Assembly (NCBI RefSeq): GCF_017641085.1
Contig: NZ_JAEPPI010000001.1
Location: 1,488,001 to 1,552,000 of the forward strand
Direction of reading: 5' to 3'
Length of the DNA: 64,000 nucleotides
Origin: Gracilimonas sp.
GTDB lineage: Bacteria > Bacteroidota > Rhodothermia > Balneolales > Balneolaceae
Numbering within the stretch: position 1 is the first letter of the stretch; the number at the start of each line of letters is the position of its first letter. Shown in pieces: positions 44,213 to 55,070 of the stretch. Position numbers and translations under genes: made by a program. Below the pieces are notes generated by a model. The model saw only the letters and a program-made list of their open reading frames with translations, searched no databases and had not been told where the DNA came from.

Positions 44213-45511
44213 ATGAGTCTGCACAAAATTTGGTTAGTACTGAAAAGGGAATATCTCACGCGCGTTAAAAGTAAATCGTTCATCATAGCCACTGCCTTAA
44301 CTCCGCTCGCTTTGGTAGCCTTTATCGGCATTGTGGTGTACATCAGCATTTCAGAATCGGAGGTAGAAAAAAGAATCGGGATACTGGACAATACCAATGT
44401 ATTGGTAGAGCGACTGGTTGACATTAATGAGACCCGCTATTTTGATGTAAGTGATATCCCCGAAGACAGCCTCCGCGCCGACGTACTCGACGGCGATCTG
44501 GATGGGTTTATTATTCTGAATGATCAGGTGATCTCGGAATCTCAAAGTCCCACTCTGATTTATGGAGGTAGCGGCGGTTTAAGTTTTATATCCGCGGTTC
44601 GGTCCGATTTACGGGAAGCCGTGCGGGAAGAGAAACTCTCTCGTGAGAATGTGTCGGATAACATCCGGGAAATTTTTGAGACCCGAACCGGACTGGAAGC
44701 CGTCAAGCTGACCGAAGAAGGGGAATCCGAAGATAACACCCTGTTTGCCTCTGCTCTGGGCTTCATACTCGGGCTGATGATCTTTATGGGCATTTTCATA
44801 TACGGATCCCTGCTGATGCGCAGCGTGATTGAGGAAAAAACCAACCGGGTACTGGAAGTAATCGCTTCGTCGGTGAAACCGATTGAGCTGATGTTCGGGA
44901 AATTGTTTGGGGTATTGGCTATGGCCCTCACTCAGTTCAGTATCTGGATTGTATTCTATATCGGTCTTTCTATTGCCGCTGCGCCGGTTGCGGGCATGAT
45001 TATGGAAGCACAGATGAGTAACATCCCGGATGAAGCTGCACAAGCAGCAGCCTCCTCATTCGATCCCTCCTCCCTGGAGCAGATGGTGGTTGACCCAATG
45101 ATTTTTGTGAACTTCCTGATCTTCTTTTTCCTCGGTTTTATGATATACAGTGCCGTGTTTGCCGCTATCGGTGCTGCGGTAGAAACCGAGCAGGATTCCC
45201 AGCAGTTTATGCTGCCGGTCGGACTTCCGATTTTCGTCGGTTACTTCCTGAACACCAAAGTAATGGAAGCGCCCGACTCCGGACTCTCCCTGTTTGTTTC
45301 CCTGTTTCCGCTCACCGCCCCCATTAACATGATTACGCGGATTGCCGCATCCCAGGTTCCCTTATGGCAAATCATCGTTTCTATTTTGTTGATGATTCTG
45401 ACCTTCCTGGGCATCATGTGGCTGGCGGCTAAAATCTACCGTGTGGGTATTTTGATGTATGGCAAAAAACCCTCCTTCAAAGAGCTCGGCAAGTGGATTA
45501 AGCAAAGTTAA
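44213..45511 (+). CDS. ABC-2 type permease (NatB-like)
   Basis: This 432-residue protein has one membrane helix near 25-45, a periplasmic domain (about 50-180), then six more hydrophobic segments from about 185 on. The ABC2_membrane_3 pattern is seen in SVIEEKTNRVLEVIASSVKPIELMFGK, shortened here: EEKTNRVLEVIASSV is the conserved cytoplasmic loop. It starts two bases after the ATPase gene. A terminator follows at 45541. The substrate cannot be read from the sequence. Confidence 0.92.
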   Translation: MSLHKIWLVLKREYLTRVKSKSFIIATALTPLALVAFIGIVVYISISESEVEKRIGILDNTNVLVERLVDINETRYFDVSDIPEDSLRADVLDGDLDGFIILNDQVISESQSPTLIYGGSGGLSFISAVRSDLREAVREEKLSRENVSDNIREIFETRTGLEAVKLTEEGESEDNTLFASALGFILGLMIFMGIFIYGSLLMRSVIEEKTNRVLEVIASSVKPIELMFGKLFGVLAMALTQFSIWIVFYIGLSIAAAPVAGMIMEAQMSNIPDEAAQAAASSFDPSSLEQMVVDPMIFVNFLIFFFLGFMIYSAVFAAIGAAVETEQDSQQFMLPVGLPIFVGYFLNTKVMEAPDSGLSLFVSLFPLTAPINMITRIAASQVPLWQIIVSILLMILTFLGIMWLAAKIYRVGILMYGKKPSFKELGKWIKQS

Positions 45512-45540
45512 ACAGAGGGAATCCTATTACTTCATTTTAT

Positions 45541-45569
45541 AAGGGACGGGCTTGCTCGTCCCTTTTTTT
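45541..45569 (+). terminator. Rho-independent terminator of the ABC pair
   Basis: AAGGGACG (45541-45548) pairs with CGTCCCTT (45557-45564), followed by T to 45569. It lies 30 bases after the permease stop. Confidence 0.88.
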
Positions 45570-45686
45570 GGTTCAGCTTGTGTGGTTGCAGACAATTTCG
45601 CTATTTCTAAGAAATATCCCCACATGGTTAAACGCTGGGTCGTTATATGATTTATGATAAACGCCGGCTACAAGATTGGAGGTAAT

Positions 45687-46064
45687 ATGACACAATATAT
45701 CGATGGATTTGTACTTCCCGTTCCACGAGTTCACCTGAATGAATACAAGAATGTGGCGGAAAAAGTAGCTGAAATTTGGAAGGAATATGGAGCACTCGCT
45801 TATTTCGAGTATGTCGGAGAAGATTTAAAGATAGAAAGCACGCGTTCGTTTATAGAACTTGTGGATTTAAAGGAAGACGAAGTAATTGTATTTGGATGGG
45901 TTTTATTTCCTTCGAAAGAAACTCGTGATTCAGCAAATAAAAAAGTCCCCAACGACCCAAGGATGGCGGAATTAGTAGCCCCGCTAACCAACCCTGAACG
46001 ATTGATTTTTGATGCTGAACGAATGGTGTATGGAGGTTTTCAGTCGTTGGTTCAATCGTCATAA
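45687..46064 (+). CDS. DUF1428 family protein
   Basis: This 125-residue protein starts at ATG 45687, preceded by TTGGAGGT, a strong ribosome binding site 4-5 bases away; the longer reading from 45654 is rejected. YIDGFVLPVPRVHLNEY is the family's usual start, and VFGWVLFPSKETRDSAN and RMVYGGFQSLV follow the DUF1428 (YbaA-like) pattern. The fold is a dimeric alpha-beta barrel related to stress-response or monooxygenase domains. Function is unknown. The gene is convergent with the membrane protein at 46086. Confidence 0.88.
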   Translation: MTQYIDGFVLPVPRVHLNEYKNVAEKVAEIWKEYGALAYFEYVGEDLKIESTRSFIELVDLKEDEVIVFGWVLFPSKETRDSANKKVPNDPRMAELVAPLTNPERLIFDAERMVYGGFQSLVQSS

Positions 46065-46085
46065 TAATTTCAGGCTTCGGTCCTG

Positions 46086-46700
46086 CTACTTCCTCTTATA
46101 CCCCGGTGTTTGTATAAAATACTTTGGCTCAAACAAGGCTTTGTCCTCCTCTGCATCCTCTTCCCGAAAAATAGAGAAAGCCCCGTTGTCCAGGTTAAAG
46201 CCGAGCATACGTCCCGATTTGGACTTAATCATTACCGTAGATGAATTCCGTTCAAAATCATACACATCTATCTCAAAACGGTGTTTTTGAATATCGGAAT
46301 TCAACAGATGCTTGATTAAATCGTCTTTCTCATTGGTGTAGAGCGTGAAGTCTTTGCTCTTTGTGTATAGGTGAAAACAATGATAGTAATCGGATTTGTA
46401 TTCATCCAAAAGCAGGTCCGATAACTGATATCGGTGCTCTCCTTTCACAATGATGGATGAGTCCGTTACCGCCAATTTTGATTTCAATTCAGCCCCTCCG
46501 TTTATCTTCGTAATAAAGGAAATGATCATCACCGCCCCAATCACAATAATGAATAGGGTCTCAATGGCGTGAGTTTCCAGGAAATCATTCAGATTAAAAA
46601 CGATGTAGGTGAATGCAATCATAAAAATGAGGGCAAAAAAACCGGAAGCACATCCCAGAAATAACTGTCGATTGGTGTATTTAAATTCTGCAGCCGCCAT
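46086..46700 (-). CDS. Two-span membrane protein with cytoplasmic domain, 204 aa
   Basis: Residues about 14-36 and 44-64 are membrane helices. The remaining 130 residues form a soluble domain with repeated short strands (AVTDSSIIVKGEHRYQLSDLLLDEY), reminiscent of a PH-like or DUF-type beta domain but not clearly assignable. The C-terminus is charged and basic (TPGYKRK). No family is recognised. The gene is single, with about 240 bases upstream before the P450 operon, with which it is divergent. Confidence 0.65.
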   Translation of the reverse strand: MAAAEFKYTNRQLFLGCASGFFALIFMIAFTYIVFNLNDFLETHAIETLFIIVIGAVMIISFITKINGGAELKSKLAVTDSSIIVKGEHRYQLSDLLLDEYKSDYYHCFHLYTKSKDFTLYTNEKDDLIKHLLNSDIQKHRFEIDVYDFERNSSTVMIKSKSGRMLGFNLDNGAFSIFREEDAEEDKALFEPKYFIQTPGYKRK

Positions 46701-46799
46701 ACATACTTTTAATTTAGAGCAACGGGAATCTAAGTGAAATAATCTGTTCTTAGAAATAAGGTTTCGGTTAAGCGGAAAATTTCTGATTTCAGTCGCTTA

Positions 46800-46828
46800 T
46801 TTCGATAGTTCCTCAAAATCTGTATAAT
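46800..46828 (+). promoter_or_regulatory. Candidate promoter of the P450 operon
   Basis: A TATAAT hexamer (46823-46828) is preceded, 17 bases earlier, by a poor -35 match, TTTCGA (46800-46805). It would give a leader of roughly 100 bases before the ATG at 46939. The -35 is weak, and the phylum often uses a different consensus, so this is tentative. Confidence 0.3.
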
Positions 46829-46938
46829 ATTCCTTGTCAAGCACATAGAAGGTTTTCGGAAGTACTTTTTTGGCCGGTAGATACGAAGTTGCACCCGGCT
46901 GTGCATTTCTTGAATATTTTTTTGATAGGTACGGTGCT

Positions 46939-48303
46939 ATGGAACATTCTACACAAGCCTTAAAACCCCCTCCCGTTGCCGATGGACAGGCTCTTTTCTT
47001 TAATCACCTGTTTAAGTTTAAGTCGGATACGCATGGATTTCTGCAGGAGCAAAGCACGAATATGGGACCTTTGTTTACGGTAAAGCTTCTTTCCAGGGAT
47101 ATTTATGTATTGAATCATCCGGATGCTATTCAGCACGTTCTAGCCGGTAATGCAAATAACTACAGCCGGATGAAGCCCTATTCCATCATGGTTGAGTTAC
47201 TGGGGCGTGGACTGATTACTACCGAGGGTGATGAATGGAAACGCAGAAGGCGTATTGCTCAACCTTCTTTCCACAAAAGAAAGATGGGTGAGCTCTTTGA
47301 TGAGATGCAGCAGACGATCACCCAATTTATTGAACAGAGAGAATTTACCGGGGGCCAATCAACCGATCTTGACAGGGAAATGAGCCAAATTACTATTGAA
47401 GTGCTGAGTAATACCATCCTTAAGAACGACATTGAGTTTGAAACCGAGCAGCTGAAAACCAACTTTGCGCTTGCATGGGATTACCTGTCCCAGAAACGGT
47501 TCCGGTGGACCAAGCTGCTAAATAAACTACCCAGTAAAACAAAATCGAAAGGGCAGCGTGCAATAGCTGATTTAAAGAAATCCATCCTTGAACTCATCGA
47601 AAAACGCAGGACTTCATCAGGAGAATTTAACGACCTGATGGATATGCTGATGAACGCTACCGATGAAGAAACCGGAGATAATCTTTCAAACGAAGAGTTA
47701 CTGGATGAGGTAATCACGCTGTTCACTGCCGGTCATGATACTACAGCCGTGGCTCTTACCTGGAGCCTTTACTGCCTGGCTCATCACCCCAAAGTGGAAG
47801 AAAAAGTCCTCGCAGAAATTGACCGGAACTGGAAAGAAGACGGCTTTCTCTTTGAAGATCTGCGTCATTTCCCGTACCTGAACATGTTTATACGAGAAGT
47901 GATGCGTTTATTCCCTCCGGTCTGGACCTTTGGTCGCCGTTCGCTGGAAGAGGATGAAATTATGGGTTTCAAGATACCGGCCGATGCCTCTGTTACCCTC
48001 CCCTCCATACTCGTGCACCGTAACCCTGAATTCTGGGAAAAGCCCGATGATTTCTATCCTGAGCATTTTACAGAAGAGCGGGTTGCCGGAAGGCATAAAT
48101 ACGCTTACTTCCCTTTTGGGGGTGGACAAAGGCTCTGTATAGGCCAGCATTTTGCACTAATGGAAATACAGCTCGTGCTCATGTTCCTATTGCGAAAATA
48201 CACAGTAACCCTTGCATCCAACAAACCCGCTGAACTCAATCTGTTGATTTCAACAAAGCCCAAAAATCCGATATGGGCAGTATTCACTCCAAGAAATATT
48301 TAG
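46939..48303 (+). CDS. Cytochrome P450
   Basis: Started at ATG 46939 the enzyme has 454 residues, typical for a soluble P450; a TTG at 46870 would add an odd 23-residue extension. All hallmark motifs are present: the I-helix oxygen-binding AGHDTT, the ExxR in REVMRLFPP, the PERF-like FYPEHFTEER, and the heme loop FPFGGGQRLCIG with Cys400. The sequence is closest in style to the CYP4/CYP110-like group, which often hydroxylates fatty acids or terpenoids. No reductase or ferredoxin gene is adjacent. It is first in a four-gene operon, with one base before the next start. Substrate is inferred only from context. Confidence 0.93.
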   Translation: MEHSTQALKPPPVADGQALFFNHLFKFKSDTHGFLQEQSTNMGPLFTVKLLSRDIYVLNHPDAIQHVLAGNANNYSRMKPYSIMVELLGRGLITTEGDEWKRRRRIAQPSFHKRKMGELFDEMQQTITQFIEQREFTGGQSTDLDREMSQITIEVLSNTILKNDIEFETEQLKTNFALAWDYLSQKRFRWTKLLNKLPSKTKSKGQRAIADLKKSILELIEKRRTSSGEFNDLMDMLMNATDEETGDNLSNEELLDEVITLFTAGHDTTAVALTWSLYCLAHHPKVEEKVLAEIDRNWKEDGFLFEDLRHFPYLNMFIREVMRLFPPVWTFGRRSLEEDEIMGFKIPADASVTLPSILVHRNPEFWEKPDDFYPEHFTEERVAGRHKYAYFPFGGGQRLCIGQHFALMEIQLVLMFLLRKYTVTLASNKPAELNLLISTKPKNPIWAVFTPRNI

Positions 48304-48304
48304 T

Positions 48305-49090
48305 ATGAAGAACGCTGCACATACCACCCTTCCCTGGCCTGCATTCAGAGATGATGTTAAAGATTTCCTGGACTTGGCTAAAGACCGCAACTATGCCTAT
48401 GGTTTTTCAGAAGCAGACATCACCCGCATTCATGCTCAACTTCAGCAGAGAAAAGTATCCGGAGAAGAACCACACTCCCTGAGTGCTTACCTGATTTGGT
48501 GTTTGGGCAAAGCGGTAAGTGCACACCCTCAGGTTCAGGCCGTTAAGCATAAAAAGAAACTGGTGGTGTTTGAGGATGTAGATGTGGCCTTGATGATCGA
48601 GAAGAAACTCCCCGATGGTAAAACTTTTCCCTTCCCCTACATCTTTAAAGCAGTTCAGACCAAATCTTTTGAAGAAATTAATACCGAGCTTCGTGAGGCA
48701 AAAGCACTGAGTTTTGAGTCCATCCGGAAAAGGAAAAAATCAGTTATTCCCCGATTTCTTCCCAAGTTCCTCAGGTTATTTATCCTGAAGAAATTGCTCA
48801 GCAACCCGTTTCGGGCAAAAGAAGTAAAAGGAACCATCGCGTTGACAAGTCTTGGCAACGTTCTGAGTAAGCGCAAATTTTGGCCGGTCCCAACCGGACC
48901 ATACCCAATAATTGTAGCCACAGGTGGCGTTTACGATTCCAAAGGCGTGCATTCATCCGGAGTAAAGAAGATGTTATGTTTTTCCTTTTCTCTTGATCAT
49001 GATATTCTAGATGGGGCTCCGGTAGCCCGTTTTGGGAATACCTTTATTGAACTTTTGGAAAGTGCCTCCGGAATAGGGGAAAAAGTATAG
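48305..49090 (+). CDS. Stand-alone 2-oxoacid dehydrogenase E2-type acyltransferase
   Basis: This 261-residue protein resembles the catalytic (CAT) domain of dihydrolipoamide acyltransferases. The signature HxxxDG is intact (DHDILDGAPVARF, His232, Asp236), and the core strand GTIALTSLGNVLSK aligns with the usual GTFTISNLG region. It lacks the lipoyl and E1/E3-binding domains, so it cannot work as a normal E2. A basic insert (SIRKRKKSVIPRFLPKF) near 140-156 looks membrane- or partner-binding. In this operon it may move an acyl group from CoA or a carrier. It is 1 base after the P450 gene and 5 bases before the fusion gene. Confidence 0.8.
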   Translation: MKNAAHTTLPWPAFRDDVKDFLDLAKDRNYAYGFSEADITRIHAQLQQRKVSGEEPHSLSAYLIWCLGKAVSAHPQVQAVKHKKKLVVFEDVDVALMIEKKLPDGKTFPFPYIFKAVQTKSFEEINTELREAKALSFESIRKRKKSVIPRFLPKFLRLFILKKLLSNPFRAKEVKGTIALTSLGNVLSKRKFWPVPTGPYPIIVATGGVYDSKGVHSSGVKKMLCFSFSLDHDILDGAPVARFGNTFIELLESASGIGEKV

Positions 49091-49095
49091 GCATC

Positions 49096-51669
49096 ATGGA
49101 TAAAGTGGAAATCAAATACGGCTTTTGGCCTTATGTAGTTTACCCCGGCACAATGATCATCAGTCTGGGGATGTTTTTTGTACTAATGGCCAATGGCTTT
49201 GAGTTGCTTGCCAGTACCTATATTCCACTTACCTTTGGGGCCTTATCCATTATCTTTTTTGAGCTATACACTCCCCATCAAAAAGAATGGATTTTTGATA
49301 AGCATGATGTCATTAACGACTCACTGTTCATGCTCACCGTCCAAACTATCCTGCCTAAAATCCTCAGCTTCCTCGTTGCCATTTTCATATTACGGATGCT
49401 GGACTATTATGAACTCCAAATTACCGGACTGTGGCCCCATCACTGGTCTATGGCATTCCAGGTGATTTTAATGGTGTTTATTGCCGATTTCTTCCGTTAC
49501 TGGCTGCATAAGTTTTCCCATGAGATTCCATTTCTCTGGAAGTTTCACGCCGTTCACCATTCACCCAAAAAACTATACTGGCTAAATGTGGGGCGATTCC
49601 ATCCTGTTGAAAAAGCACTGCAGTTTCTGGGCGATGCCATGCCGTTCATTATTGTAGGAGTTTCGGAAGAGGTGCTGGCGCTTTACTTTGTTTTTTATGC
49701 GGTTAATGGCTTTTTCCAACATTGCAATATCGAACTGGAAATGGGGCCGCTTAACTATGTAATCAGCGGCCCGCAACTACATCGTTGGCATCATTCCCGA
49801 AAGATTGAAGAATCCAACACCAACTACGGAAACAACATTATTATATGGGATATTCTTTTTGGCACCTACTTTTTCCCAAAACACCGGCTTGTAGATGAAC
49901 TTGGCCTGCTCAACAAAGAGTATCCATTAGATTACCTGTCCCAATTAAAAACTCCCTTCTCCGGTGAAATAGACAAAAAAGCCCTCCCCCTCCAAGGTAT
50001 TTCCGGAATGATTTTGAATACGCTTCTGAAATTTAAAATGAAGTGGATCGAGATTACCCTTTATAACCCTTTGAAAGAACTTGCCCGATCACCTGAGAAA
50101 GTTCAGAAAGAAACATTGTCCTCTATTCTTTTGGAGAATATGAATACTCTTTATGGGAAAGAGTATAATTTTGATAAAATCACCGGTTACGAAAGTTATC
50201 GAGAGAAAGTACCGGTTAGTGAATATGAAGACATCCGGGGCTTAATCGAAAAGCAGGATCTTGAGAAAACAACTTCTTTAACTGCAGAATCTCCCCTTTT
50301 TTATAACCAAACGAGTGGAACAACTGGTCAACCTAAATACCTGCCTGTTTTAAAGAGAACACTGGCATCGTTAAGGAAGACTCAACAGATATTTTCCCTG
50401 GTTCAATACACAGCTTGTCCGGAAGCGTTTTACGGGAAGATCATAGGTTTGGTGAGTCCGGCTATAGAAGGTTATATGCCTTCCGGTAATCCTTTTGGAA
50501 GTGCCTCCGGTCATATTTATAACACCATGCCCTGGCTTGCCCGTAAGAAATACGTTATTCCTAAAGAGGTATTTCAGATTAAAGACTATGAGATAAAATA
50601 TTACATAGTGTGCCGGCTGATGATTGAGGAAAAAGATGTGACGTACCTGGGTAGTGCCAACCCTTCAAGTTTTCACAAACTTCTGGATGTTATCAATCAA
50701 AATTTTAGCCACATTTATAGCGACATCGCTTCAGGAACGTGCAAATACCTCGGAGATTTAGATCCTCGAATTATCGCTGCGGTAAACAGGAGACTAAAAC
50801 CGAATTCAAAAAGAGCTGAAGAATTGGCTCACTTGTTTAGCACCGGCGATCAAATTAGCTACAAAGAAATCTGGCCTTATCTGAAACTCCTGATTACCTG
50901 GACCGGGGGAAGCTGTGGAATCTCTCTGAAAAGTGTACTCCCCAAATTCCGAAATGATATCCGTGTTATTGATCTTGGATATTTATCCAGCGAACTAAGA
51001 GCAACGGTTACGATAAACCCGGCTACGAATGAAGGCGTACCTACGATCGGAGAAAACTTTTTTGAGTTTGTACACAGAGATGACTGGGAGAATGACCGCC
51101 CTGACTTTAAAATGATAGGAAGTTTAGAACAAGGAGAGCAATACTATATTTTTGTAACCACTCCCACCGGTTTATACCGGTACAATATGAACGATATCAT
51201 TGAAATCTCAGGTAAGTTTGAGAATACTCCCACTTTTCGCTTTATACAAAAAGGGAAAGGAGTTACAAATATAACGGGGGAGAAATTATATGTAAGCCAG
51301 GTTATTAATGCCGTAAAAAAAGCAGAACAAGAACTGAACCTTGATTTTCGTTTTTACCAAATGTTAGCTGATGAGAAATCGTCTTTATATGAATTATATA
51401 TTGAACCCGGCGAGAGAATAATTCCTTCTATCTCAGAACTCAGCCGGGTTATTGATACCGCACTGCAAGAACAGAATATAGAATACAAAACAAAAAGGGA
51501 GAGCGATCGGCTGCAGGAGTTGAAACTACATATTCTTGTGCATGGCTGTTATGAAACCTACAAAGATTTTTATTTGAAGCAAGGACAAAGAGAGGGGCAA
51601 TTTAAACCTCAAATTTTACAGTACAAGAGTAACTTTGATTTTAAAATTCAGGAGTTCGTTGCTGAATGA
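49096..51669 (+). CDS. Fatty acid hydroxylase :: GH3 acyl-amide synthetase fusion
   Basis: This 857-residue protein has two enzymes in one chain. Residues about 1-275 are a membrane-bound fatty acid hydroxylase/sterol desaturase domain with di-iron histidine boxes: H138xxxH142, H151xxHH155, H209 and H229xxHH233, among about five hydrophobic helices. Residues about 325-857 match the GH3 superfamily. NQTSGTTGQPKYLPV is the nucleotide loop, YLSSELRATV the second ATP motif, and GLYRYNMNDIIEISG and NITGEKLY mark the domain hinge. GH3 enzymes adenylate carboxylic acids and join them to amino acids or amines. The linker near 280-325 has an amphipathic segment. Stop and next start overlap (ATGA). An oxidised acyl-amide product is inference. 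Confidence 0.88.
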   Translation: MDKVEIKYGFWPYVVYPGTMIISLGMFFVLMANGFELLASTYIPLTFGALSIIFFELYTPHQKEWIFDKHDVINDSLFMLTVQTILPKILSFLVAIFILRMLDYYELQITGLWPHHWSMAFQVILMVFIADFFRYWLHKFSHEIPFLWKFHAVHHSPKKLYWLNVGRFHPVEKALQFLGDAMPFIIVGVSEEVLALYFVFYAVNGFFQHCNIELEMGPLNYVISGPQLHRWHHSRKIEESNTNYGNNIIIWDILFGTYFFPKHRLVDELGLLNKEYPLDYLSQLKTPFSGEIDKKALPLQGISGMILNTLLKFKMKWIEITLYNPLKELARSPEKVQKETLSSILLENMNTLYGKEYNFDKITGYESYREKVPVSEYEDIRGLIEKQDLEKTTSLTAESPLFYNQTSGTTGQPKYLPVLKRTLASLRKTQQIFSLVQYTACPEAFYGKIIGLVSPAIEGYMPSGNPFGSASGHIYNTMPWLARKKYVIPKEVFQIKDYEIKYYIVCRLMIEEKDVTYLGSANPSSFHKLLDVINQNFSHIYSDIASGTCKYLGDLDPRIIAAVNRRLKPNSKRAEELAHLFSTGDQISYKEIWPYLKLLITWTGGSCGISLKSVLPKFRNDIRVIDLGYLSSELRATVTINPATNEGVPTIGENFFEFVHRDDWENDRPDFKMIGSLEQGEQYYIFVTTPTGLYRYNMNDIIEISGKFENTPTFRFIQKGKGVTNITGEKLYVSQVINAVKKAEQELNLDFRFYQMLADEKSSLYELYIEPGERIIPSISELSRVIDTALQEQNIEYKTKRESDRLQELKLHILVHGCYETYKDFYLKQGQREGQFKPQILQYKSNFDFKIQEFVAE

Positions 51670-52781
51670 ACATAGATAAGCTCATAATCAAACCCCTTGA
51701 GATCCCTTTCAATTCAAGCTTTGAACATAGTTCGGCCAAACGTAAAAAAACGCAGGCTGTTTTAGTCGCTGCCAGGACTGAAAAAGGAAACACGGGGCTT
51801 GGGGAAGGTTGCCCCCGGGTATATGTAACAGGGGAAACAGTATTTACATGCATCGATTTCTTTAATAAACATGCTCCTGAAATTAAACGCCATATCCATT
51901 CTATATCTGACCTGAAACATTGGGTTTTCCAAAATAAAACCCTCATCGATAAAAACCCTTCGGCGTGGTGTGCCATTGAACTTTCCATCCTTGATGCGTT
52001 ATCAAAAGACCAGAAAACATCGGTAGAAGCCACGGTTGAAGTACCTGAATTACAACCTGCTTTTCAGTACAGTGCTGTGATTGGGATGAGCAATGAAGCG
52101 GTAGCAAGGAAAAGGATTGAAAAGTTTAATGCACTTGGCTTTAAAGATTTTAAAGTAAAGATATCCGGAAATCTGACTAAGGATAATTCCATACTACAAA
52201 CTGTCAAAGAAATTATCCCAACGGCAACCATCCGATTAGATGCCAATAACCTGTGGAATATCCCGGAACAAGCAGTGAAGTACCTTAACGGACTTACCGT
52301 GACTCCCTCAGCTATAGAAGAGCCTCTTGAAGCAGAGGACTTTGAAGGTCACAGAAAGTTTATTGAACAATCCGGAATTCCCGTAATCCTGGATGAATCT
52401 ATTTACCTGGAAGAGCATTTAGAATCCATTCTGAGTTTTTCAGAAAACTTCATCATTAACCTGAGGGTATCAAAAATGGGAAGTATTCTAAGATCTTTGA
52501 AAATGGCTGAAATGGCTGCCAGTGCCGATATCCCTTTAGTCATTGGCTCACAAGTTGGTGAGACCAGTATCTTAACCCGAGCCGCCCTAACCATTTCAAG
52601 TACATACTCTGACCGGGTCAGAGCTATGGAAGGAGCTTATGGGACTTTACTTTTAGACAGAGATGTAACGGACAAGTCCCTCATGTTTGGCAAAAATGGA
52701 GTAATAAATACCCTTGAGAGCCTTGATTATAAAAAGTTTGGTTTCGGCCTTGTTTATAGAAAAGAGTTCACGGATATATAA
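51666..52781 (+). CDS. Enolase-superfamily enzyme (muconate-lactonizing/epimerase subgroup)
   Basis: This 371-residue protein has a capping domain (1-125) and a TIM-barrel. Catalytic residues of the MLE subgroup are all visible: K163 and K165 (FKVKIS), metal ligands D192 (RLDANN), E218 (IEEP) and D243 (LDES), and K270 (RVSKMGS). Known members include muconate cycloisomerases, dipeptide epimerases and N-acylamino acid racemases. The DxD motif that dipeptide epimerases use to hold the substrate amine is not seen after the last strand; AMEGAYG occupies that area. Racemisation of an N-acyl amino acid made by the GH3 domain would fit, but this is inference. It starts inside the stop of the fusion gene. 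Confidence 0.85.
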   Translation: MNIDKLIIKPLEIPFNSSFEHSSAKRKKTQAVLVAARTEKGNTGLGEGCPRVYVTGETVFTCIDFFNKHAPEIKRHIHSISDLKHWVFQNKTLIDKNPSAWCAIELSILDALSKDQKTSVEATVEVPELQPAFQYSAVIGMSNEAVARKRIEKFNALGFKDFKVKISGNLTKDNSILQTVKEIIPTATIRLDANNLWNIPEQAVKYLNGLTVTPSAIEEPLEAEDFEGHRKFIEQSGIPVILDESIYLEEHLESILSFSENFIINLRVSKMGSILRSLKMAEMAASADIPLVIGSQVGETSILTRAALTISSTYSDRVRAMEGAYGTLLLDRDVTDKSLMFGKNGVINTLESLDYKKFGFGLVYRKEFTDI

Positions 52782-52799
52782 TCGCTTATTGCGGCTGGT

Positions 52800-55070
52800 T
52801 TAATTCCCCATTACTCTACGGATCTTAACCTGTACCCTCGGGTCCATCTCCTCTTTTCTTCGGTCTTTAAGTACGTCAACCGTTTTCTTGGCAGACAGAT
52901 ACTGCACGGCATCCAGTGCCTGGTAACGAATTCTGGGGTCCCGGTCCGCCATGAGCATTTCTATGGTTTGATTCCAGTATTCCTGGTTTTTCTCATAGGT
53001 TAGCAGAATATTGAGTGCCTGTTTTTTGATGGAATACGGATAATCTCCCAGTGCCATCCGGTCAGCAATGGATATAGATTCTCGTGTGGTATCTGTTTGA
53101 ACAGCAACCTTCAGAACGTTAATGGCTTTGTCGGCATCACCACTTCTCTCCAATCGCTCTGTTAATGATATCAGGTTATCGGCTTCGGCCAATTTTCCAT
53201 AAGTATTCAACGCCGTGGCAAATACAGTGTCTATTTCAGCCCTGATAAGTGTGTTTCTGACAGCGTATCTGACCTGTTCGTTTTCGGGATAATCAGCAAG
53301 CGCCCTTATGGCCGACAGCCTTATCGCCAAATTATCAGAATTCAATTGCTCCAGGAAGTTTTGCTCGGTCCCGGATGCGCCCTGTGTTATTTCCCCTAAG
53401 GTGGCCAGCATGGCCGCACGAACTTCCGGTTCTCCCTCAGCTTCCAGAACATCCTGCAGGGCCAGCTGTAAATCCGGGTTATCGGTATAATTTCTGAGCT
53501 GGCGAGCCGCTTCTATCTTTTCATCGGGATTGGAACTTCGAAGCTGACGAATCAAAAACATAAAGGGCTTTTGCTCCTTCAGAGTAAGGTCAAAATCGGT
53601 TTTAGGTTTCAGAGTCACATATTCGACACCCGAGATCAGCTCTACTGAAACAGAATCGGACGCACCTGTAAAGGTGATTTCTGACCGTGTGGTATCCATA
53701 AAACCATACTGAACCAGTTCCAGTCCGGCAAGGGTACCCACCGGCTCCGATTCTGCCTGAAAATGTAAAGTGAGCGAAGGCTCTAGTTCATCGTACCGAT
53801 AGTCCACTTGATAGGTATATCCTTTCTGAGCTTCCTCATCTTTATTCATAAGCGGTTCTGGCAATGCTTTCCAGTAAATCCCGGTTTGGTCGTACCAGAA
53901 GTCGGCGTATTCACTCCAACCGCTTACCTCCTGCATTTGCTGAATCAGTTCCGGCAATGATTCCCTGATGGTTTGTTTGAGAAATTCATCCTGCATATTT
54001 CCAATTCCCTGTACCCATTCATTCCAGCCTTGGATCGACTGCAGGTTATCCGGGTTCAACAGAGGTACGCTTTCATCGCTTTCAGTGACCAGAGCTTTCA
54101 AAAACTCATAGCGTGAATCGGGTGCATCAAGGTAGCGGTGGAAATTTCCCAGCCACTGTTCTGCGATCCCTCTCTTCAATTGGGAGGACAGACTTCCAAG
54201 GTTCTGGTATAAATAAATGACTCCGGCTCCTGACTGAATTTCTTCCCAGTGATTATCAGGCAGCACAACAATGTGAAGAGCCGAATACGGAAACTCGTAG
54301 GAGAACGTGTTCTCATATTTCTTCAGGCTTTCAACAGCAATAGATAACAATCCCGACCGAACTCCTTCAAGTAATGCATTTTCGGAGGCATGTATAGAGA
54401 CTTCTTTCACCCCTGAACGAGCACTTTCTGTTTGGAAACTTCCAACCGAAAAGGTAATTCCAGATACCGGAACCGCAGTTTCTGAACTCCATTCAACCCG
54501 CTTCTCTTCGGTAGAAACAACTTCATCACCTACTTTATTTCCATTAAATACAACCTGAAGATCTGCCGGAATCGTGAAACTTGCATTGACCACTGACTCC
54601 ACCTCGGGGTGATCCGGGATCGGAATCCAATGGTGGCGGGAACGTGGATTTAAAGAGGTCCACAGGTTCCCATAAACATCGGTATTAATTCCATAAGGAG
54701 AAGAACTCTCCCAGGTTACCAAAAAAGAGGTGCGTTGGTCTGCATTCAGGGTATCCTGCAACTGAATGATCAGCGAATCTGAACTCACCCTAAAATCAAG
54801 TGACTGACCGTTGTTCGAAACTTCCTTAACATCAAGATTGGATGTATTGAAAACAACTCGTGTAAGATCGGGCTGCCTGGAACTGATACGGTAGGTGCCT
54901 GTTGCTTTAATAAGTGCAGATGACGGTTCCACTGTTACTTCCAAATCGATGCTGTTCAGCAAAAAAGGCAATTCGGGGTAAGCCTTATAGTCCCAGTTTA
55001 CCGACGACTGACCGAAAAGTGTGGCTACAAAAAGAAATGTAAAAAGCGTTGTAAATAGACCTTTTTTCAT
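52800..55070 (-). CDS. M1 aminopeptidase-like pseudoenzyme with C-terminal HEAT repeats
   Basis: This 756-residue protein has a signal peptide to about residue 21. An N-terminal beta-sandwich (about 35-215) and a following helical region match the layout of M1 aminopeptidases. The zinc motif HELAHQWWGN is degenerate here, reading RGIAEQWLGN (300-309), so both zinc-binding His and the catalytic Glu are lost. The GAMEN exopeptidase loop is also replaced (EEIQSGAGVIYLY). About residues 490-756 are HEAT-type helical repeats. It is therefore probably a non-catalytic binding protein in the periplasm. The ATG shares one base with the hisN stop (TAATG), so the two genes are coupled. Confidence 0.78.
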   Translation of the reverse strand: MKKGLFTTLFTFLFVATLFGQSSVNWDYKAYPELPFLLNSIDLEVTVEPSSALIKATGTYRISSRQPDLTRVVFNTSNLDVKEVSNNGQSLDFRVSSDSLIIQLQDTLNADQRTSFLVTWESSSPYGINTDVYGNLWTSLNPRSRHHWIPIPDHPEVESVVNASFTIPADLQVVFNGNKVGDEVVSTEEKRVEWSSETAVPVSGITFSVGSFQTESARSGVKEVSIHASENALLEGVRSGLLSIAVESLKKYENTFSYEFPYSALHIVVLPDNHWEEIQSGAGVIYLYQNLGSLSSQLKRGIAEQWLGNFHRYLDAPDSRYEFLKALVTESDESVPLLNPDNLQSIQGWNEWVQGIGNMQDEFLKQTIRESLPELIQQMQEVSGWSEYADFWYDQTGIYWKALPEPLMNKDEEAQKGYTYQVDYRYDELEPSLTLHFQAESEPVGTLAGLELVQYGFMDTTRSEITFTGASDSVSVELISGVEYVTLKPKTDFDLTLKEQKPFMFLIRQLRSSNPDEKIEAARQLRNYTDNPDLQLALQDVLEAEGEPEVRAAMLATLGEITQGASGTEQNFLEQLNSDNLAIRLSAIRALADYPENEQVRYAVRNTLIRAEIDTVFATALNTYGKLAEADNLISLTERLERSGDADKAINVLKVAVQTDTTRESISIADRMALGDYPYSIKKQALNILLTYEKNQEYWNQTIEMLMADRDPRIRYQALDAVQYLSAKKTVDVLKDRRKEEMDPRVQVKIRRVMGN

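Follow-up and report, generated by a model that had tools for sequence, protein, structure and literature searches.

An OlsE-like hydroxylase fused to a GH3-family synthetase beside an enolase-superfamily gene: a candidate amino-lipid operon in Gracilimonas

We analyzed a 64,000-nucleotide stretch of the genome of Gracilimonas sp. (NCBI RefSeq assembly GCF_017641085.1, contig NZ_JAEPPI010000001.1, positions 1,488,001 to 1,552,000 of the forward strand), hereafter the window. Within it, one open reading frame joins a fatty acid hydroxylase domain to a GH3-type amide synthetase, and a gene for an enolase-superfamily enzyme follows with a short overlap. The features of these two genes are listed here, with residue conservation counted among the relatives described below.

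49096..51669, + strand: fused OlsE-like hydroxylase/GH3 amide synthetase, 857 amino acids, one frame with 0 internal stops
49096..49980, + strand: hydroxylase half, about residues 1-295 (PF04116; OlsE model over residues 13-291; transmembrane helices in the predicted model; di-iron histidine boxes)
49507..49521, + strand: histidine box 1, H138 to H142, kept in 23/23
49546..49560, + strand: histidine box 2, H151 to H155, kept in 23/23
49780..49794, + strand: histidine box, H229 to H233, kept in 23/23
49966..49998, + strand: junction or linker, residues 291-301, placed by alignment to the end of split hydroxylases and the start of split GH3s
49999..51666, + strand: GH3 half, residues 302-857 (Pfam domains; predicted model matches JAR1)
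50311..50337, + strand: GH3 nucleotide motif I, TSGTTGQPK, residues 406-414; TSGTT and K kept in 19/19
50977..50994, + strand: GH3 nucleotide motif II, GYLSSE, residues 628-633; G, Y, and E kept in 19/19, S632 in 18/19
51169..51195, + strand: GH3 nucleotide motif III, GLYRYNMND, residues 692-700; L, R, Y, and D kept in 19/19
51666..52781, + strand: enolase-superfamily (MR/MLE subgroup) enzyme, 371 amino acids (PF13378, E = 8.8e-27), overlapping the fusion gene by 4 bp

The fusion is real, and both halves are complete in a single frame. Residues 123-257 match the Pfam family FA_hydroxylase (PF04116) with an E value of 1.5e-30 and 106.8 bits against a gathering score of 31, which places the first half in that superfamily. 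The second half matches the N-terminal GH3 domain at residues 326-607 (E = 4.7e-58), GH3_M at 654-719, and GH3_C at 735-842. It belongs to the GH3 family both by these profiles (PF03321, PF23571, and PF23572 at 197.2, 60.1, and 62.3 bits against a gathering score of 23.6) and by its three nucleotide-binding motifs and predicted GH3 fold. A first-pass annotation of this DNA had described a fatty acid hydroxylase and a GH3 enzyme in one uninterrupted 857-residue frame, with intact signature residues in both halves, and the reading frame, the domains, and the conservation all agree with that description. Ten histidines (138, 142, 151, 154, 155, 169, 209, 229, 232, and 233) are invariant in the hydroxylases of all 23 relatives. 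The motif cores TSGTT-K (406-414), GY--SE (628-633), and LYRY--ND (693-700) are kept in 18 to 19 of 19 GH3 sequences, a set that leaves out the truncated L037 to L039 and the broken L046. The same annotation judged a chimera from sequencing error unlikely. We can rule out both error and chimera, because the joined frame recurs in another species of the genus (G023), whose fused homologue is 97% identical to the window protein, and in seven further records from metagenome-assembled genomes (MAGs). Between the window and G023, the gene is under purifying selection, linker included: the ratio of nonsynonymous to synonymous substitution rates (dN/dS) was 0.094 for the whole gene, 0.104 for the hydroxylase half, 0.089 for the GH3 half, and 0.126 for the linker (residues 291-330), the last value resting on just 3 substitutions.

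We scanned 84,980 species genomes and obtained 24 loci, of which 17 encode both halves (L032-L047 and L052) and 7 encode a GH3 only (L048-L051 and L053-L055). These 17, together with the window, G023, and four loci (L105-L108) found by searching the phylum to which the Nitrospina record belongs, make up the 23 carriers. Carrier record titles name Bacteroidetes, Flavobacteriales, Gemmatimonadetes, Gammaproteobacteria, KSB1, Caldithrix, Latescibacterota, SAR324, Nitrospina/Nitrospinaceae, Nitrosomonas, Proteobacteria, Verrucomicrobia, and Poribacteria. All 17 scan carriers are MAGs, and because the near-identical pairs L040/L045 and L035/L039, which cross phyla, may be binning errors, the phylum counts are soft.

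A single frame crosses the junction in nine of the 23 carriers: it is full length in the window, G023, L032, L034, and L035, it runs to the end of the contig in L037, L038, and L039, and in L033 it breaks partway through the GH3 half. The other 14 (L036, L040-L047, L052, and L105-L108) have two adjacent genes cut at an equivalent place, with gaps of -29 to +7 bp at the 10 junctions listed; the GH3 frame of L046 is broken as well. The first-pass annotation had said that its fusion would fall if related genomes always encoded two proteins with a stop near residue 290. A split at about residues 290-297 is indeed the commoner state, but it is not universal. We rejected the fusion both as a general feature of the relatives, given these 14 split loci, and as a feature of the host family, in which 2 of 92 genomes carry it. 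No full-length fusion was found on plasmids (none of the 245 matching records spans 80% of the query).

In the alignment, the fused linker overlies the ends of the split hydroxylases plus the starts of the split GH3s, and the junction is short and collinear. On the hydroxylase tree a single change (support 85/92) accounts for the fused state, and the GH3 tree requires two; both trees were built without the late loci L105-L108. Split locus L036 falls within the fused clade of the GH3 tree. Its junction (L036:8849-8852) is collinear in length with the fused proteins and lies in another frame, with a 4-bp overlap; L036 may have split recently, or its record may contain an indel. Because 14 of 23 loci consist of adjacent genes split at an equivalent place, the fusion most plausibly derives from an older pair of closely packed genes, although the trees alone do not fix the direction.

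The only NCBIfam models that the fusion matches are OlsE (NF052566, cut-off 475) and OlsH (NF052613, cut-off 620). Judged by sequence, the hydroxylase half is nearest to OlsE. Five relatives scored 191-201 against the OlsE model. For comparison, two rhizobial proteins above its cut-off reached 495 and 548; among other FA_hydroxylases, a Rhodococcus plasmid protein scored 151, the second copy in the window genome 91, and others 87 and 77. On the hydroxylase tree, which has some long end branches, a branch supported at 100/99 separates the family and OlsE from the other hydroxylases tested. Rhizobial OlsE and the fusion family align over their full length and have in common the histidines and the GRFH, HCN, LHRWHHS, and NYG patterns. 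They differ in that identity is about 31-33%, the score lies below half the cut-off, and the family hydroxylase is fused to or beside a GH3 gene. A 2018 title by Holzl reportedly places OlsE at the C4 position of ornithine lipid. OlsE acts on the head group of that lipid (PMC4484230).

The GH3 half is predicted to adopt the plant GH3 fold. Its model, with a predicted local distance difference test (pLDDT) score mostly above 90, aligned to JAR1 (4epl) by VIA-align with a Z score of 40.8 and a root mean square deviation of 2.8 over 522 residues. The whole fold is common to the plant acyl acid amido synthetases JAR1, GH3.12, and GH3.5 (Z of about 40 over about 520 residues), whereas identity is about 20%. 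A search with the whole fusion listed only GH3/ANL-type folds, and it barely covered the hydroxylase half. Plant GH3 enzymes are soluble, unfused, and act on hormones; the membrane-tethered form that had been suggested for this locus was borne out.

A bacterial GH3 with nucleotide motifs of the same kind is OlsH (NF052613), the lyso-ornithine lipid synthetase of Singulisphaera acidiphila. According to the 2025 report on it (PMC12493201), OlsH activates a free fatty acid by adenylation and couples it to ornithine, yielding N-acyl-ornithine in a reaction that needs ATP and Mg2+. The same report describes S115 as essential, the S115A variant being inactive, and describes a preference for nonhydroxylated fatty acids, with a very weak signal from hydroxypalmitate (PMC12493201). 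It also describes OlsI, an alpha/beta-hydrolase that lies in the OlsH operon in planctomycetes and O-acylates the OlsH product, and it mentions thousands of bacterial GH3 homologues, leaving the products of most of them open (PMC12493201). The serine equivalent to S115, in motif I, is invariant in the fusion family. The family differs from OlsH in scoring 73-100 bits against its model and in having an enolase-superfamily enzyme as partner where OlsH has OlsI. PF13444, the domain of the OlsB and OlsF N-acyltransferases, had 0 matches in the window genome (G000) and was absent from 15 of 19 carrier genomes searched, several of them incomplete MAGs. These absences fit a substitute route to amino lipids in G000 and the 15 carriers.

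In all 19 carriers with sequence beyond GH3, the next gene encodes an enolase-superfamily protein; the contigs of L037, L038, L039, and L043 stop before this gene and were excluded. This gene is the most conserved part of the context, and the first-pass annotation mentioned neither it nor the bacterial precedent OlsH. It is damaged in L046. The available flanks of the seven GH3-only loci contain no relative of it at E<=1e-4. With its PF13378 match and its KxK, K, and metal-ligand residues, the window protein belongs to the MR/MLE subgroup. All 15 sequences compared have K163, K165, D192, E218, D243, and K270, and E219 differs once; the near-duplicates L033, L045, and G023 and the damaged L046 were omitted from this check. 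In these 15, the catalytic set is intact and of the racemase/epimerase type. The predicted model (pLDDT 88.8) matches 2p88, an N-succinyl-Arg/Lys racemase, and 1jpm, 3q45, and 3jva, all dipeptide epimerases, near-equally (template modeling scores of 0.79-0.86, about 20% identity), and the fold and the lysine/metal-ligand set are common to all of them. Dipeptide epimerases carry a DxD motif near the last barrel strand. The partner differs from them in having E and A in place of this motif, and in conserving H21, R26, Q296, and E299 besides. Divergence of the hydroxylase, GH3, and enolase-like partners is correlated (Mantel r of 0.70-0.82; 0 of 2,000 shuffles as high). The window genome encodes two further MR_MLE genes above the family cut-off, and each of the seven other genus members examined has two weak enolase-like relatives (23-31% identity by protein search). 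Among the genus members examined, the window's own gene occurs only in G000 and G023.

From this operon of hydroxylase, GH3, and enolase-superfamily genes, we propose, with a probability of roughly 0.55, that the fusion is a membrane-tethered N-acyl-amino-acid (amino-lipid) synthetase joined to an OlsE-like head-group hydroxylase. We infer the amino acid, the site of hydroxylation, the partner's reaction, and each catalytic step from the enzyme families. The GH3 half would use ATP to adenylate a fatty acid and then N-acylate an amino acid with it, so that a free carboxylate and an alpha-hydrogen remain. The di-iron half would hydroxylate the amino-acid head group of this amphiphile at the membrane, as OlsE does on ornithine lipid. 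Because enolase-superfamily chemistry requires a carboxylate beside an alpha-hydrogen, we place the partner on the N-acyl amino acid conjugate, where it would remove the alpha-proton beside the carboxylate and most likely epimerise the conjugate; alternatively, it would promote loss of water after beta-hydroxylation. More speculatively, and for the window only, a cytochrome P450 and an acyltransferase-like protein encoded just upstream could hydroxylate and O-acylate the acyl chain, respectively, so that a membrane lipid with two chains results. For the head group, our weakly held first guess is a basic amino acid (ornithine or lysine, for example). More tentative than the proposal itself is its extension to a cross-phylum amino-lipid cassette, in which the GH3, the hydroxylase (often on one chain with it), and the enolase-type enzyme would make a hydroxylated lipid whose amino acid is D-inverted or alpha/beta-dehydrated.

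Several observations weigh against this proposal. The fusion misses both equivalog cut-offs, with 199.9 bits over residues 13-291 against 475 for OlsE and 73.1 bits (77-100 in relatives) against 620 for OlsH. Other GH3s lie at least as close to OlsH as the GH3 half does, with 267 bits for a stand-alone example from a sister genus in the host family. In the alignment to 1jpm, the partner has E322 and A324 where dipeptide epimerases have DxD. The catalytic part of the hydroxylase model has a pLDDT of about 46-65, too low for its geometry to be used. We considered and dropped an amphipathic membrane-anchor helix where the GH3 half begins, since 20 of 80 other protein segments score equally high. 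The fusion is rare in the host phylum: of 394 sampled genomes, only that of the window has it at E<=1e-40. An OlsF-type protein of 540-620 amino acids is additionally encoded in four of 19 carrier genomes, which argues for a different product there. Finally, the P450 and acyltransferase-like genes adjoin the fusion only in the window and G023 and were not seen in the other 21 loci.

Other explanations account for some of the same evidence. The special case of a plain ornithine-lipid system, with OlsE fused to OlsH and 4-hydroxy-ornithine lipid as the product, is the least improbable of them, though we think it unlikely. OlsE and OlsH are the nearest named models, the genome lacks OlsB and OlsF, and the partner's nearest folds include a racemase of basic N-acyl amino acids. 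Set against this, both equivalog cut-offs were missed, and with just 73-100 bits to OlsH the GH3 half is not especially OlsH-like, so ornithine is not implied. The window operon has no alpha/beta-hydrolase, neither OlsI nor the one present in 4 of the 23 loci, which is of another family, S15. Nor, to our knowledge, has ornithine-lipid synthesis been linked to any enolase-superfamily enzyme. A little less probable again is the order given by the first-pass annotation, in which a lipid chain (from a fatty acid, a carotenoid, or a sterol-like compound) is first oxidised by the hydroxylase half, after which the GH3 half links it to an amino acid. FA_hydroxylase is a broad superfamily, the GH3 fold is plant-like, and GH3 enzymes take carboxylic acids that can be oxygenated, as plant precedents indicate. 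The annotation's idea of coupling oxidation to conjugation stands, but its order loses ground because the hydroxylase half resembles OlsE over its full length (199.9 bits, against 77-91 for other FA_hydroxylases from this and related genomes), and OlsE targets the head group (PMC4484230). The very weak response of OlsH to hydroxypalmitate also speaks against lipid-first oxidation (PMC12493201).

We regard two further possibilities as improbable, to about the same degree. The operon might make or inactivate a secreted N-acyl-amino-acid signal or secondary metabolite instead of a membrane lipid; the patchy distribution, the insertion of the genes as a cassette, the P450 and acyltransferase-like partners in the window, and one distant GH3 in a Streptomyces polyketide cluster would all be in keeping with such a product. 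An OlsE-like half that is integral to the membrane, a membrane-protein-like neighbor in 12 of 23 loci, and retention across many phyla without a P450 are harder to reconcile with it. The fusion might also be a neutral accident, a stop lost between neighbors with no coupling beyond co-expression, as the separate genes cut at the same place in 14 of 23 relatives and the short, collinear junction would allow. The fused state is nonetheless clustered on the trees (one hydroxylase-tree change and two GH3-tree changes, near-identical pairs included), and the linker is not relaxed between the window and G023, on three substitutions only.

The remaining genes of the locus, and the insertion that contains them, are listed here.

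46701..52800, no strand assigned: four-gene insertion (about 6.1 kb) between orf204 and a HEAT-repeat gene, by comparison with G029 and G024
46870..48303, + strand: cytochrome P450, 477 amino acids from TTG (PF00067, E = 1.3e-92)
48305..49090, + strand: stand-alone E2/CAT-type CoA-dependent acyltransferase, 261 amino acids (PF00198, E = 9.9e-15; HxxxDG present)

Only about 70-77 bp separate orf204 from the HEAT-repeat gene in the sister genomes G029 and G024, whereas the window and G023 have the P450, acyltransferase-like, fusion, and enolase-like genes inserted there. The P450/acyltransferase-like pair has a guanine-plus-cytosine content of 0.45 and the fusion/enolase-like pair one of 0.40-0.41, a contrast that hints at two origins for the cassette. 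The P450 frame begins with TTG, and an in-frame ATG at 46939 may be the true start. Plasmid searches found no close relative of the enolase-like or the acyltransferase-like gene. A promoter and terminator scan of 46000-53000 gave no signal (promoter-like sites numbered 14, with 14.5 expected, and terminator-like sites 6, with 6.6 expected), and the window contains no tRNA. Next to the insertion, the stretch from an ABC permease gene to orf204 (window 45511-46870; also L057:1495-4991, L082, and L083) varies among the genus members compared and looks like a variable insertion site; in G023 it holds a gene pair that by eye resembles a PIN-domain toxin-antitoxin.

Neighbors differ elsewhere. Nine loci (L037, L038, L041, L047, L052, and L105-L108) have a membrane-protein-like family of about 149 amino acids, with no Pfam match, directly upstream of the hydroxylase. 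A homologous membrane stretch is joined to an S15/CocE-type alpha/beta-hydrolase in L032, L033 (partial), and L036, and the S15 gene is separate in L052, for totals of 12 of 23 loci with the membrane part and 4 of 23 with the S15 part. In a Caldithrix MAG (L038:5911-10514), a second GH3 (565 amino acids), a separate FA_hydroxylase (271 amino acids), and the small membrane protein are encoded in tandem just before the fused gene. A GH3 gene in a Streptomyces plasmid polyketide cluster (L096:4938-6608) lies near P450 and threonyl-tRNA synthetase genes and possibly serves a natural-product amide step.

In the open-licence PMC literature, we found, among the matches listed, no paper on a hydroxylase-GH3 fusion, on its operon, or on stereo-inverted ornithine lipids, and N-acyl-ornithine synthesis by OlsH was the only function found there for a bacterial GH3. 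GH3-dependent amino-lipid synthesis and OlsE-type hydroxylation are already known; within that literature, we found neither their fusion nor the conserved enolase-superfamily partner described. The conserved adjacency of hydroxylase and GH3 beside a racemase-like enzyme suggests an undescribed route to amino-acid lipids. One GH3 clade thereby gains a conserved and testable context, with an alpha-carbon enzyme and a hydroxylase dedicated to it, the latter fused to the GH3 in one lineage. The fusion offers a natural example of two steps, probably consecutive, joined in one membrane-bound protein, and the proposal predicts a specific lipid class for Nitrospina, Nitrosomonas, and several marine lineages. 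If the pathway of D-inversion (or dehydration) is true, the partner would be, as far as we know, the first racemase-type enzyme of the enolase superfamily in membrane-lipid synthesis.

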